Source: Anaeromonas frigoriresistens
Lineage (GTDB): Bacteria; Bacillota; Clostridia; Tissierellales; SIT17
Assembly (NCBI RefSeq): GCF_016820655.1
Contig: NZ_WSFT01000031.1
Span: 62,001-126,000 of the forward strand
DNA: 64,000 nucleotides
Direction: 5' to 3'
Position numbers and translations under genes: made by a program. Of the stretch, positions 39,828-62,275 are shown piece by piece (position 1 is the stretch's first letter; each line of letters begins with the position of its first letter). The notes under the pieces were generated by a model. The model saw only the letters and a list, made by a program, of their open reading frames with translations, searched no databases and was not told where the DNA came from.

Positions 39828-39880
39828 TTTACATTACTCAAGATAAAAATATCATAGTATTAATAATATATTCTCTTAGC

Positions 39881-39975
39881 AAACAACTTCCTACGCTGGT
39901 ATTATCCAGTTCAGGTTATAAGGGTCAAAGAATACATCTTAATCTCAGCTGGTTAATCCAGCCCCCCTGTTGTTA
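39881..39975 (-). ncRNA. TPP riboswitch (THI element)
   Basis: On the minus strand the THI landmarks appear in order: GGGGGGCTGG, CAGCTGAGATTAAG, GACCCTTATAACCTGAACTG and GATAATACCAGCGTAGGAAG. P1 can form between AACAAC at the 5' end and GTTGTT at the 3' end. It controls purF-thiC by transcription termination, off when thiamine pyrophosphate is bound. Confidence 0.96.
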
Positions 39976-40031
39976 CATATTAATTCAATTTTTCTATTTT
40001 AATAGTACCATACTAATATACTATATACAAC

Positions 40032-41066: not shown

Positions 41067-41352
41067 CTATTTTTGTGATAAAAATAGTACTAGATGATTT
41101 CGAGGTGTTAAAATTGGATAATGAAAACTACGTACAAAATAATTCAGGAAACAATAGTTATTAATTTTGCATCTATTTTCATAGTCAAAGATAATACCAT
41201 ATGATATCTCAAGATAATTAATTTCTATGTTATTAAAACTACTTCTATCAACAAATTTATTAAAATTAAGTGGTATAAACCAATGACCTATTCTTGGGAC
41301 ATTAAGAACACGACCTGAATAAAATAACCTTGATTTTATCCACTTCTATCAT
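41067..41352 (-). pseudogene. Frameshifted remnant gene following an attC-like site
   Basis: AAGGAG then ATG at 41352 opens MIEVDKIKVILF, after which the frame breaks; a shifted frame continues SGRVLNVPRIGHWFIPLNFN, then KFVDRSSFNNIEINYLEISY and GIIFDYENRCKINNY. One indel near 41315 would join them. The family is not recognised. It begins 26 nt after an attC-like site, as a cassette gene would. Confidence 0.55.
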
Positions 41353-41377
41353 AGGATCCACTCCTTATATAAATTTT

Positions 41378-41449
41378 GCCTAACGGTGTTGTGTTTACAA
41401 CACCTTTGAGGTCTACCAAGAGCTACATATGCGACTGAATATCACCGTC
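41378..41449 (-). repeat. attC-like site 1 (ends CGTTAGGC)
   Basis: On the minus strand GACGGTG (41449-41443) pairs with CACCGTT near the other end, which closes with GTTAGGC (41384-41378). Inside are CATATG and a perfect 8-bp hairpin GGTGTTGT/ACAACACC. GTTAGGC matches the integron R' core GTTRRRY; a matching R'' box is not clear, so the site may be partial. Confidence 0.45.
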
Positions 41450-41479
41450 TTTTTCTTCCCAACTATTTATATGTACTTT

Positions 41480-41697
41480 TTAGACTTTATAAAGAGATAG
41501 CTTTGAAATATATCTTTCAAATGTTTCACTTCTTTTTACTGAGCTCCAATAAGCACAACTAACATCATATAAAAAGTCAGCCCCACTTCTCAGTTATACT
41601 CTCAATTGGAATGTAGCTAAGGTCATGTTATATGATGTGGTGCCTGCTTTTCATACTTAAAAATGAAATTTACTAAATAATTTACATTATTATTCAC
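41480..41697 (-). pseudogene. Decayed cassette gene, unknown
   Basis: Fragments in successive frames read NNNVNYLVNFIFKYEKQAPH then HIT, HDLSYIPIESITEKWG, then ADFLYDVSCAYWSSVKRSET and FERYISKLSLYKV before a stop at 41480. Two single-base indels would restore about 72 codons from GTG at 41697. No family recognised. It lies between the Nudix gene and attC-like site 1. Confidence 0.45.
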
Positions 41698-41891
41698 CTT
41701 AAAATGTTCTCTATTTATTATTATTTTAAATATTTCATTTGATTTTCTAATTCAAATAGCAACACTAATCTTAGACCTAAAAATATAATATAAATAATCC
41801 TTCGTTTTAAAAATGTATTATAAGATATTAATATATTTTTATTTTTTTATAAAATAAATTCAATGTATAAGATGATAAAACCAATAATTTT

Positions 41892-42332
41892 CTAATAATT
41901 ATAAAAAATCTCTGCTTTATATTTTGATTCTTCCTTATTTTTTAATTCTATTAGTAATAGTTTTATAAATCCTCCCAAATCGTAATTATCAATTTCTTTT
42001 AAATCTACCCACTCATATTCTTGAGCCTCTTCATTCAATATTACGTTATAAGAATCCGTTTTACATATATAATCAATGAATATAAAGTGCTTTTTTTCAT
42101 GAAAAGATTCATTATGTACACTTTCTTTTATGCTAATTAATTGAATGTCATATATTTCCAATCCAGTTTCTTCTAATATCTCTCTTTTTAATGCTTCTTC
42201 CATTTCTTCACCTAATTCAATATGGCCACCAGGAATTATATATTTATTATTCCACTTGTGAGATTTACAAAGAAGTATTTTATTATCTGGATTAAAAATA
42301 ATAGCACCAACAGTTGGTTCAGGATATCTCAT
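41892..42332 (-). CDS. Nudix hydrolase
   Basis: 146 aa. The Nudix box reads GGHIELGEEMEEALKREILE then ETGLEIYD, matching GX5EX7REUXEEXGU, at residues about 34-58. MRYPEPTVGAIIFNPDNKIL is the usual opening strand. Hydrolyses a nucleoside-diphosphate-linked compound; the substrate is unknown. It starts 62 nt after attC-like site 2 and is the only intact gene between the two sites. Confidence 0.92.
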   Translation of the reverse strand: MRYPEPTVGAIIFNPDNKILLCKSHKWNNKYIIPGGHIELGEEMEEALKREILEETGLEIYDIQLISIKESVHNESFHEKKHFIFIDYICKTDSYNVILNEEAQEYEWVDLKEIDNYDLGGFIKLLLIELKNKEESKYKAEIFYNY

Positions 42333-42394
42333 TATTTTGCTCCTCTCTTTTTTTATTTCTTAAAATAATTTAATCTGATTTTAAACACCATGTC

Positions 42395-42464
42395 GCCTAA
42401 CGTTTTGAGACTTAACGACGGTTCATATGTTTCTTGTGAACTATCGTGAATACTTTGTTATAGG
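42395..42464 (-). repeat. attC-like site 2 (CCTATAAC ... CGTTAGGC)
   Basis: Minus strand: CCTATAACAAAGTATTCACG (42464-42445) leads to an inner stem ACGATAGTTCA/TGAACCGTCGT enclosing CAAGAAACATA, then AAGTCTCAAAACGTTAGGC ends at 42395. CCTATAAC and GTTAGG form the outer boxes, giving the R''-L''-L'-R' order of an integron attC site in about 70 nt. Confidence 0.5.
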
Positions 42465-42611
42465 AAGTGATGACTTTTTACCACCTATCTTACTCCCACA
42501 CATATTACAATGAATCATCCTTATTGCTATACCTACAATGGTCCAAGGCTGTTTATTCCGTTCTTCAAAAATTACATATGCAAGTAGTTTTTCTTCCTCA
42601 CTGCCTGGCAC
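42441..42611 (-). pseudogene. 56-codon ORF, C-terminal fragment with HCxxCG motif
   Basis: GTG at 42611 opens VPGSEEEKLLAYVIFEERNK, then QPWTIVGIAIRMIHCNMCGS, KIGGKKSSLPITKYSR and a stop inside attC-like site 2. HCNMCGSKIGG looks like half of a zinc knuckle. A different frame upstream reads LKEKYSARQ, so the 5' end is probably frameshifted. Could also be an intact small protein. Confidence 0.45.
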
Positions 42612-42664
42612 TATATTTTTCTTTCAAAACAATACTCTAAGATTTATTTTACAAACTAACTTGT

Positions 42665-43039
42665 CTATTTTTTTATAATAATATCTTTTAATTTATTACT
42701 CTGTTCCTCTGTAATTAAATAATAATTTTCCCTAGGTCTTAATGTAATTGCAGTTCCATCTTCTAAAAACCATATATATGCCCATATTTCTGCAACCCCA
42801 TCCTTATTTAATGAAATAAATGTATCAGGTTCTCGTGTTAAATTATCAGAAACATCAATTTCTTTTAAGCTATTGAAAATACTACGTACCTGTTGAATCG
42901 TTTCTTTATCTTTAATCTCTATATCAAATGTTATTGTATCTTCATTTGGAGAACCTATTCTAAGTATTTCATTAGGTGAACACCCAGTAGTAATTAACAC
43001 TATTAAAATTACTATAATAATCAAACCTCTTTTAGTCAA
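42665..43039 (-). CDS. Small lipoprotein, unknown
   Basis: 124 aa. Signal peptide with hydrophobic stretch IIIVILIVLI and lipobox ITTGC (Cys 20), then a small soluble domain: TFDIEIKDKETIQQVRSIFN and SLKEI, ending RENYYLITEEQSNKLKDIII. TTG start 7 nt after GGGGG. No family recognised with confidence. It lies upstream of attC-like site 2 in the same orientation, so it could be another cassette gene. Confidence 0.75.
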   Translation of the reverse strand: MTKRGLIIIVILIVLITTGCSPNEILRIGSPNEDTITFDIEIKDKETIQQVRSIFNSLKEIDVSDNLTREPDTFISLNKDGVAEIWAYIWFLEDGTAITLRPRENYYLITEEQSNKLKDIIIKK

Positions 43040-43742: not shown

Positions 43743-45065
43743 TTAGAATATCAATCCAAACACAATACTTCCTATAACTAATACCATTCCTCCACCTATC
43801 CTTGAAGAAATTTGTCCATAGGATATTAAATCCATTCTCTTAGAAGCACCTAGTACTGCAATATCCCCAGATCCTCCTCTGTTTGCCATACATAACCCAG
43901 CAGTAACTGCTGTGTCTATTGGGAAGAACCCTACAAAATAACCAACTATAGCACTTCCTAATACTGCACCAATAACAACAAATGCTGCTATAAATACATT
44001 TGAAAGAGTAATTGCTGCTACAAGTTCTCCTAAGTCAGTAAAGGCAATACCGACACCAGCCATTATTACCCAAATAAACTGTCCTGTAAAGAATTTCTGT
44101 AACTTTTTAGCTCCACTTCTTAATTCTTCAGGAATTAATCCTAAAGCATTAAATATTGCTACAAATATAACCATATATGCGAAGTGATGAATTACTACTC
44201 CACCTATTGAAGGAAGTAAAGCTTTAGAGAATAATCTACCTAGTGAATAGAATGTTGTTGCTAAAATAAGTCCTGCTGCTACATCTCTAAAAGTAGTTTT
44301 TGTTTCCTTGTTATCTTCATCAGTTAAAAGGGCTTTTGAATTTCTAATTAATTCTTCCCCATTTCCTGTTAAATTAGGTCTCATTTGTCCAATTTTATTT
44401 AATATAGCACCTATAAATATTGCTACAATGTTAGCTATTGTAAGGATTGAAATTGCAAAGGAATAATATGCATCTCTTGGTTGTCCAGTTACTTCTTCCC
44501 ATATTTCACTTAAAGGAATAGCTCCTGCACCATTTCCTCCACCCATAATAGGTAAAACGTATTTTATAGCAATTTCTTTAAAAGGAACTCCAACTATAAG
44601 GCCTGCTATTCCTCCAAATAAGAAAGCAAATGCAAGACCGCCTAAGATAGCTGGAACATATCCTATAAAAGATCTTATTAATAATTTTCTATTTACCGCT
44701 AATATTGATCCCGTTATTAATACACTAATAAATAGTGTTAAAAAGTCTGAATCATCCATAAATACTACTACAGAATCAACATATTTCTCTGGTAAAATTC
44801 CTTTATATACTAGATATGCTGCACCTAAGAATGCTAATATTGATCCTCCCCCTATATATTCCTTCCAGATAGGGATTCTATCTCCTATTTCTCCAAATAC
44901 AATACCAAGTAAGAATAATACCGCAAATCCACCAGCTAAATCTGTTGATAAACTTCCTGTTGCCATACCTGCTATTATTACTATTGCAAATATTGCAAAT
45001 ACATGAACAGGCATTCCAAAAAGCTTAAACTTTTGTCCATTATTTATACCTTTAGTCCCTTCCAT
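43743..45065 (-). CDS. 2-hydroxycarboxylate transporter family protein (citrate/malate:Na+ carrier)
   Basis: 440 aa, polytopic (about 11-12 helices). Both GGxG re-entrant loop motifs of the 2HCT family are visible: IMGGGNGAGAIPLSEIW (about 174-190) and ANRGGSGDIAVLGASKRM near the C-terminus. CitS, CitP, CimH and MaeN belong here. The citrate lyase and sodium-pump decarboxylase genes downstream on the map make citrate the likely substrate, with sodium symport. Expressed from its own promoter behind a roughly 195-nt leader that contains a terminator. Confidence 0.93.
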   Translation of the reverse strand: MEGTKGINNGQKFKLFGMPVHVFAIFAIVIIAGMATGSLSTDLAGGFAVLFLLGIVFGEIGDRIPIWKEYIGGGSILAFLGAAYLVYKGILPEKYVDSVVVFMDDSDFLTLFISVLITGSILAVNRKLLIRSFIGYVPAILGGLAFAFLFGGIAGLIVGVPFKEIAIKYVLPIMGGGNGAGAIPLSEIWEEVTGQPRDAYYSFAISILTIANIVAIFIGAILNKIGQMRPNLTGNGEELIRNSKALLTDEDNKETKTTFRDVAAGLILATTFYSLGRLFSKALLPSIGGVVIHHFAYMVIFVAIFNALGLIPEELRSGAKKLQKFFTGQFIWVIMAGVGIAFTDLGELVAAITLSNVFIAAFVVIGAVLGSAIVGYFVGFFPIDTAVTAGLCMANRGGSGDIAVLGASKRMDLISYGQISSRIGGGMVLVIGSIVFGLIF

Positions 45066-61779: not shown

Positions 61780-62275
61780 CCATCCCATCTCCTTCCACCT
61801 TGTCTCGGATAATTTTCCTTGCCCTAAATACTAATACTTTAAAATAAGATAAACTAACCCCCATCACCTGGGATGCTTCCTTATAGGATAATCCTTTAAA
61901 ATCACAGAGAATTATAGCCTTTCTCTGCTTATCCTTCATTGTTTTAATAATCTCTCTTACTTTGAAAAGCTCATCCTGAATAATTACTTCTTTCTCTAGA
62001 GACTTATCATCTGAGAGATTACCAAAATATTCCTTTTCTCTAATATCATTTTTGCTATTCTTTCTAACATAGTCCACATAGGCATTATGGGCTACAGTAA
62101 ATAACCATGACTTCACATTATCCTCAGGACAACTTTCAAAATACATATATGCCCTGTAAAAGGTTTCCTGCATAATATCCTCTGCAATGTGCTTATTTTT
62201 ACATCTCGAAAGGAGGTAGCTATAAATATCATTCATATATAGTTTATAAATATAATCCAATGAATTTTTGTTCAA
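61772..62275 (-). CDS. ECF RNA polymerase sigma factor
   Basis: 167 aa. Region 2 reads ADDIMQETFYRAYMYF (as AEDIMQETFYRAYMYF at 32-47) with core-binding and -10 recognition residues, and SWLFTVAHNAYVDYVRKNSK; region 4 reads RKAIILCDFKGLSYKEASQV and MGVSLSYFKVLVFRARKIIR. TTG start behind AAGGAGG. Co-transcribed with the overlapping anti-sigma gene and preceded by an ECF-type promoter, so it probably activates its own expression on envelope stress. Confidence 0.94.
   Translation of the reverse strand: MNKNSLDYIYKLYMNDIYSYLLSRCKNKHIAEDIMQETFYRAYMYFESCPEDNVKSWLFTVAHNAYVDYVRKNSKNDIREKEYFGNLSDDKSLEKEVIIQDELFKVREIIKTMKDKQRKAIILCDFKGLSYKEASQVMGVSLSYFKVLVFRARKIIRDKVEGDGMDE

Follow-up and report, generated by a model that had tools for sequence, protein, structure and literature searches.

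In integrons, the bases that follow the crossover point belong to the next cassette, and in the circular form of that cassette they pair with its own R''. Here we analyse a cassette-like stretch at positions 41,067 to 43,039 of a 64,000-nucleotide window (the whole stretch of DNA that was analysed; contig NZ_WSFT01000031.1 of the Bacillota species Anaeromonas frigoriresistens, positions 62,001 to 126,000), in which an initial annotation had placed two attC-like sites. The stretch is very probably a decayed piece of an integron-like cassette array, a remnant resembling the clusters of attC sites lacking integron integrases (CALIN). Integrons are reported to be rare in Firmicutes: the accessible part of the IntegronFinder 2.0 paper gives one complete integron, in Limnochorda pilosa, and few CALIN (PMC9024848), the accessible table of a 2008 survey has integrons in 0 of 103 complete Firmicutes genomes (PMC2426708), and excerpts of a further paper count Firmicutes among the integron-bearing phyla (PMC8618304). 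In archaea, as far as the accessible text of the report goes (PMC9668308), the attI-like site lies directly downstream of the integrase gene, as in the arrays described below; most integrons found there are arrays without an integrase, and a cluster of attC sites needs at least two. The same excerpts state that archaeal IntIs keep the IntI-specific additional domain, unlike the recombinase described here.

The arrays to which the stretch is related resemble classical integrons, whose features are taken here partly from general background, in their co-directional gene cassettes, an attC-like fold with R and L boxes, a crossover at G/TTA (the slash marks the point), long arrays, a relation between cassette start and R'' like that of free circles, a putative attI-like entry point and signs of bottom-strand bias. 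Unlike classical integrons, they are found in Bacillota, and their recombinase lacks the IntI-specific insert, which is considered essential in the classical type. The recombinase gene stands upstream of the array and co-directional with it, with the putative attI-like site on its 3' side, and the complementarity between cassette start and R'' extends over about 12 nucleotides with a near-constant wobble at +7.

The intact site of the stretch, site 2, lies on the minus strand at 42394–42464, and its modelled (folding) strand is the plus strand. Against R1, a short-site model built from 15 similar sites, none of them from the window, it scored 54.6 bits (E 1.8e-10 for the 64 kb searched), and the sole other match over the window up to E 10 reached 12.6 bits. 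Site 2 is a real structured site with the R''-L''-L'-R' layout, far beyond chance, and the order of boxes read by the initial annotation is borne out. As checked against the letters, R'' ACTTCCTATAAC occupies 42468–42457 and R' CGTTAGGC 42402–42395, and the crossover would fall between G 42401 and T 42400. The R1 training sites were taken from the bottom strand; contigs C37 and C42 of the same genome supplied four, and relatives the others (G, L and C labels denote genomes, loci and contigs; C13 to C53 are contigs of A. frigoriresistens). In these sites, which were picked by a folding scan that favours structure, 17 of 24 pairs showed compensatory changes on both sides (60 cells versus 19.5 in shuffles), and sliding the alignment by one to three columns lost most of the pairing. 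The 8-mer CGTTAGGC, with which both annotated sites do end (42395–42402 and 41378–41385), is no evidence by itself, because the window contains six copies with at most one mismatch where 12 would be expected, and there is a third exact copy, at 1232–1239.

Sites of this type stand elsewhere in the genome in co-oriented arrays with recombinases at the array heads. We identified 29 distinct sites on seven contigs (C13, C15, C32, C36, C37, C38 and C42), of which 16 were found by R1 (E ≤ 10; 15 at E ≤ 1e-4) and 14 by the long-site model R2 (E ≤ 0.01), with one in common; six were training sites. The genes of the C37 array, among them GNAT, PF06983 and protease genes, all share a strand and stand behind a tyrosine recombinase, and the recombinase on C53 looks intact, with 366 residues between stops. 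The annotation had reported that no integrase was present, which holds for the contig of the window (no recombinase match at E ≤ 1e-15) but not for the genome, where recombinase genes are intact-looking (C53), interrupted by an in-frame stop (C37) or remnant (C36).

Genes in these arrays run in one direction and carry a foldable site at the 3' end. We collected 108 R1 sites of at least 40 bits in 30 loci, giving 62 neighbouring pairs within 2 kb (median spacing 812 bases); the longest open reading frame (ORF) of the interval lay on the cassette strand in 54, on the opposite strand in one, and was absent in seven. A replicate drawn from the arrays of G582, G321 and G451, which belong to other families of the phylum and had not been used before, gave 59, five and three among 67 intervals. 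Cassette starts behaved as the integron logic describes. Among the 62 pairs, which come partly from closely related genomes and are therefore not all independent, the four bases after GTTA matched the same cassette's own R'' at 3.21 of 4 positions on average (32 perfect), as opposed to 1.84 (3 perfect) for the R'' of the site now occupied, and none of 2000 shuffled pairings, with a mean of 1.73, reached 3.21. In the replicate, 67 pairs averaged 3.52 with their own R'' (46 perfect) and 2.36 with the occupied site (5 perfect); with two added hits, the 70 pairs gave 3.47 versus 2.34, with 47/70 versus 5/70 perfect. Judged from these comparisons, cassettes carry their own start/end complementarity and the crossover point lies at GTTA, as would be expected of circle-like cassettes with a site-specific crossover at G/TT of R'.

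Cassettes can also be followed between positions. In G082, an identical 993-bp cassette adjoins the recombinase of one array and sits inside another, with the identity running from GTTATAGG to ACCGTTATA and breaking at GTTA. The first cassette behind the C53 recombinase recurs in C37 at 91% identity, with homology starting at GTTA, and a G011 cassette and its C32 counterpart start together at CGTTA. These observations bear on the suggestion, also made in the initial annotation, that the sites are an unrelated repeat family that converged on the attC fold, for example hairpins like repetitive extragenic palindromes or miniature inverted-repeat transposable elements spread between genes without a cassette mechanism. 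Such repeats would account for the conserved flank TCATCACTTCCTATAAC in several sites and for the intervals (7/62 and 3/67) without an ORF of at least 60 amino acids. A mobile hairpin, however, should have matching arms, whereas the bases after GTTA match R'' at the far end of the cassette, a median of 0.8 kb away, far better than they match R'' within their own hairpin, and a whole gene has moved with one site attached. The cassette boundaries and the complementarity tests speak strongly against a repeat family, which we regard as extremely improbable.

A tyrosine recombinase gene stands next to the arrays, as in classical integrons; in at least six loci (C37, two in G082, G133, G451 C11 and G470) it lies upstream of the sites and co-directional with them. 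By eye, 9 of 13 loci have, 3' of the recombinase stop codon, an inverted repeat CGAAC...GTTCG or CGAC...GTCG followed by 10–11 bases and GTTA; this attI-like repeat was not clear in G011, in both G044 copies and in the IS91-type G041. The first cassette starts exactly at the putative attI-like site in G082 and C53, and both in G082 and in the C53/C37 pair the same cassette occurs at such a site as well as within an array.

Cassettes might instead be moved by host XerC/XerD, as dif-like modules, or by IS91-type elements with a related recombinase. The array recombinases do have relatives among IS91-associated tyrosine recombinases: in L236 and L240 a related gene has an annotated IS91 transposase as its neighbour, and L214, L219 and L075 show the same arrangement by eye. 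The closest solved fold, moreover, is archaeal XerA (Z 23.3 versus 18.9 for IntI4). Yet IS91-associated recombinases adjoin the transposase and not the head of a cassette array, whereas the array recombinase is upstream of its sites in at least six loci and has the GTTA-ended repeat at its 3' side in nine of 13; the moved G082 cassette starts exactly at such a site behind an array recombinase, and no IS91 transposase was noticed, by eye only, at the array heads of C37 and G082. We consider it quite improbable that Xer or IS91-type elements move the cassettes.

The recombinases themselves belong to Phage_integrase with SAM-like N domains in Pfam. All of six tested (five array-type and one IS91-type, from L075) ranked first in NCBIfam with NF040815, "site-specific tyrosine recombinase/integron integrase" (204.6–242.2 bits, cut-off 220), four above the cut-off and two below (219.6 and 204.6), and all six fell below the cut-off of 265 for TIGR02249, "integron integrase" (187.3–219.4 bits). 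The insert of about 42 residues in IntI4 is absent, as 20 residues align where IntI4 has 62. Between the basic K-D/E-R motif and LRH, the spacing is 63–68 in 23 of 25 rows of the array-type clade (an array being shown for some of these rows, not every one), the pattern giving no value in the other two. It is 67 in XerC, 71 in XerD, 63–71 in all five IS91-associated rows, which likewise lack the insert, and about 105 in IntI1, whose insert contains a further pattern match, at 78; in the second IntI row the motif differs but the same long stretch is visible. A predicted structure (mean predicted local distance difference test score 79.1) aligned best to archaeal XerA, followed by 4a8e (Z 19.0), IntI4 and XerH (18.8), these three being tied. 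In a 34-row tree with modest support, flagged long branches and two IntI rows only, IntI fell outside the group of IS91-type and array-type recombinases, with Xer on the root side. Several clade recombinases (L067 8376–8640, L068, L070 and L072) are extended at the N terminus by about 80 residues that include a motif like IRKIxGRxWN...YWxIP; the one Pfam match there, to HARP in L072, is weak (E 0.0023).

These data also address whether the arrays are ordinary classical integrons whose IntI has merely diverged in sequence, so that only the host would be new. The best named models, NF040815 and TIGR02249, and a site logic like that of integrons agree with that view, but the failure of all six recombinases to reach the TIGR02249 cut-off, the missing insert, the spacing of 63–68 against about 105 in IntI1, and the place of the array recombinases outside the two IntI rows (on long branches) count against it, and we judge it unlikely. 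The array recombinase lacks the IntI-specific additional domain of classical integrons, so the system is not an integron by the usual integrase definition, though working like one. By its working it is integron-like, and the recombinase without the defining insert sets it apart from known integrons.

Recombinase and sites occur together across genomes. In a sample of 199 genomes of the order, A. frigoriresistens included, we found the recombinase (E ≤ 1e-15) in 11 and R1 sites (E ≤ 1e-4) in 18, with both in 9 of the 11 recombinase genomes (Fisher p 2e-9); leaving out G041, whose recombinase is IS91-type, the figures were 8 of 10 and p 3e-8. Site counts of the order scan are lower bounds because stricter filters were used and 25 candidates were scored per genome. 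Among 398 genomes of the phylum, again counting A. frigoriresistens itself, sites (E ≤ 1e-4) occurred in 13 and recombinases (E ≤ 1e-60) in 33, the latter including IS91-type relatives. The annotation had called integrons rare in this lineage; the sites are not confined to this genome, being present in 18/199 of the order and 13/398 of the phylum.

Within the window, the minus strand carries a GNAT gene and then the features in the order that the annotation gave: the small lipoprotein-like ORF, the remnant before site 2, site 2 itself, the Nudix gene with decayed sequence after it, and the end of site 1, behind which lies another decayed gene. The features of the stretch are as follows.

42665–43039, minus strand: predicted small lipoprotein ORF upstream of site 2, called by eye
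42441–42664, minus strand: remnant directly upstream of site 2, holding TCATCACTTCC, a stretch that precedes R'' in several sites of the same type
42394–42464, minus strand: site 2, the intact attC-like site (R1 match 54.6 bits, E 1.8e-10)
41892–42401, minus strand: Nudix cassette after site 2, beginning GTTAGGCGACAT, with a Nudix hydrolase gene at 42332–41892 (PF00293, E 2.7e-21)
41574–41635, minus strand: left half (R''-L'') of a long-type attC-like site, TCATATAACA..., ending abruptly at about 41577
41426–41580, minus strand: 155-base cassette-gene fragment, whose full-length C42 relative is an MbnB/TglH/ChrH-type protein (PF05114, Pfam)
41378–41441, minus strand: right half (L'-R') of a long-type attC-like site, the end of the annotated site 1, ending ACACAACACCGTTAGGC
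41138–41349, minus strand: decayed cassette gene after site 1, a relative of the HAD-hydrolase gene in the mobile 993-bp G082 cassette

Site 1 was tried as an intact second attC-like site and dropped, since neither R1 nor R2 supports it; what the annotation had taken for one site is two half-sites around a gene fragment. The left half shares 50 of 63 columns with its counterpart in a C42 site (L051 4983–4922) and also resembles L138 2833–2760, and the right half is identical at 72 of 110 columns to L076 1612–1719, taken by eye for a long-type right half. Between them, the gene fragment has 83% identity to C42 (L051 2333–2179) and 83% over 150 columns to G011 (L141 824–675). The decayed gene after site 1 has 63% nucleotide identity over 231 columns to L074 3890–4117 and L072 8530–8757, and its reading frame was compared by eye with L074 3405–4112 (HAD_2, Pfam). 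Fragments in the window are thus homologous to genes in arrays elsewhere. As in CALIN, the window has an attC-like site and cassette genes, with no recombinase found on the contig; unlike CALIN, which need at least two attC sites within 4 kb without an integrase, it has one intact site, and is therefore a decayed remnant and not a two-site cluster. The annotation's proposal of a CALIN-like remnant stands in substance.

Other searches of the stretch returned little. The lipoprotein ORF had no Pfam or NCBIfam match at E ≤ 0.01, and no plasmid had DNA similar to the stretch at E ≤ 1e-5. The 19-base conserved stretch, searched in a genome collection, gave one record, Sporosalibacterium faouarense (Tissierellales, NCBI taxonomy). 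In 10 of 17 BLAST rows only the AT-rich part before the Nudix gene matched, which we judged to be chance. At gathering cut-offs, Rfam gave a thiamine pyrophosphate riboswitch alone in the window (39871–39978, minus strand, 82.1 bits).

In the mechanism that we propose, each cassette comprises a gene followed at the 3' end by a site able to fold (R''-L''-L'-R'). The bottom strand of such a site, once folded, would be joined at G/TTA to another site by a tyrosine recombinase whose gene lies in another part of the genome. Cassettes may in this way be released as circles, to be inserted at other attC-like sites or at the putative attI-like site that immediately follows the recombinase gene on its 3' side. 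The window piece probably derives from an array of this kind, of which an intact site and the adjoining Nudix cassette would be what survives, further cassettes having been fused and eroded by deletion. We infer that the array recombinase is what moves the cassettes.

Several observations weigh against this account. Besides the selection of training sites by folding and the partial dependence of the pairs, site 2 folded alone with DNA energies is no stabler than shuffles (z -0.50 and -0.46 for the two strands), and its strands fold nearly equally well (-4.9 and -4.6 kcal/mol). The wobbles in the start/R'' pairing are of two kinds: G-T wobbles on the bottom strand outnumber those on the top at +4 (15 versus 1), +6 (14 versus 1) and +7 (56 versus 1) among the 62 pairs, as would fit a reaction using the single bottom strand, but at +9 to +11 top-strand wobbles are commoner, 15 versus 6 in all, and the +7 wobble is nearly constant whichever R'' is paired and is therefore no independent evidence of pairing. 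The G011/C32 cassettes diverge before the far end. A cassette gene common to G027 and C36 (L078 18992–19742 and L098 10604–9853) is homologous up to R'' TTTAAC, and the attC stems differ, so the homology ends at R'' and not at R'; site swapping or exchange at R'' is a possible cause. Among the recombinases of the genome, that of C37 has an in-frame TAA stop, the contig of the intact-looking C53 copy ends 0.6 kb past the gene, and only a remnant precedes the C36 array; the enzyme, moreover, lacks the IntI insert.

In the window, site 1 is broken, and the Nudix cassette has lost its own end site: a scan downstream for a matching R'' was negative. Nor did we find a start for the cassette that site 2 once terminated. 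The sequence predicted for that start, GTTATAGGAAGT, matched at 43778 only, a hit taken as chance and as native coding sequence because the protein of a same-genus homologue in G002 ends there in almost the same way. Same-genus genomes yielded no empty site, and their gene order differs.

Similar arrays, some of great length, are present elsewhere in Bacillota. Arrays of superintegron size are present in single-contig Bacillota genomes, at L209–L211 (G582 850000–909700) and L212–L213 (G321). In G582, 44 R1 matches at E ≤ 0.05 extend over about 56 kb behind recombinase fragments, and in G321 we noticed no recombinase heading the array. The resistance gene tet(X3) lies directly behind a clade recombinase in L234 3200–4585 (NZ_CP041297), with the same gene order in L237, L238 and L239. 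Between the two genes, L234 has the inverted repeat TACGCCATTTGGCGTA and ...CTT/GTTATGTG, which puts tet(X3) in the position of a first cassette; R1 found no attC-like site behind tet(X3), and a start/end scan of L234 was also negative. A plasmid of Chryseobacterium sp. SNU WT5 (L235 7300–10240, NZ_CP041688) has three start/own-R'' pairs behind a clade recombinase, against a control mean of 0.4 and maximum of 2, and R1 gave two matches there, one of them credible and weak (21.5 bits, E 0.0059). L235 is possibly a Bacteroidota version of the same system. A Pontibacter plasmid, L241, looks similar to L235 by eye, and the start/end scan of L240 and L241 found nothing. The accessible part of PMC12772301 concerns another resistance gene only.

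Taken together, we favour with moderate confidence the view that these loci, in several Bacillota families and on one Bacteroidota plasmid, represent a second integron lineage in which a Xer/IntI-related recombinase without an I2-type insert recombines folded attC sites. This lineage would be sister to the IntI lineage, is maybe an intermediate in the origin of integrons, and may have captured the tet(X3) of Acinetobacter plasmids. In the literature searched, we recognised no report of integrons with an insert-less recombinase, although most subscription papers and bioRxiv were outside its scope, so that absence is unproven. Systems of this kind would probably be missed by surveys that depend on the IntI domain. 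Should the tet(X3) lead prove right, this system would also have contributed to the history of a drug-resistance gene. Functional intermediate forms were named by Escudero et al. (2016; PMC4792948) as the way out of the question of integron origin. An insert-less recombinase combined with attC-like sites and cassette movement of the integron type would make this 'chicken-egg' question testable. The window itself is a minor decayed piece, and its value is that it led to a system that bears on how integrons arose.

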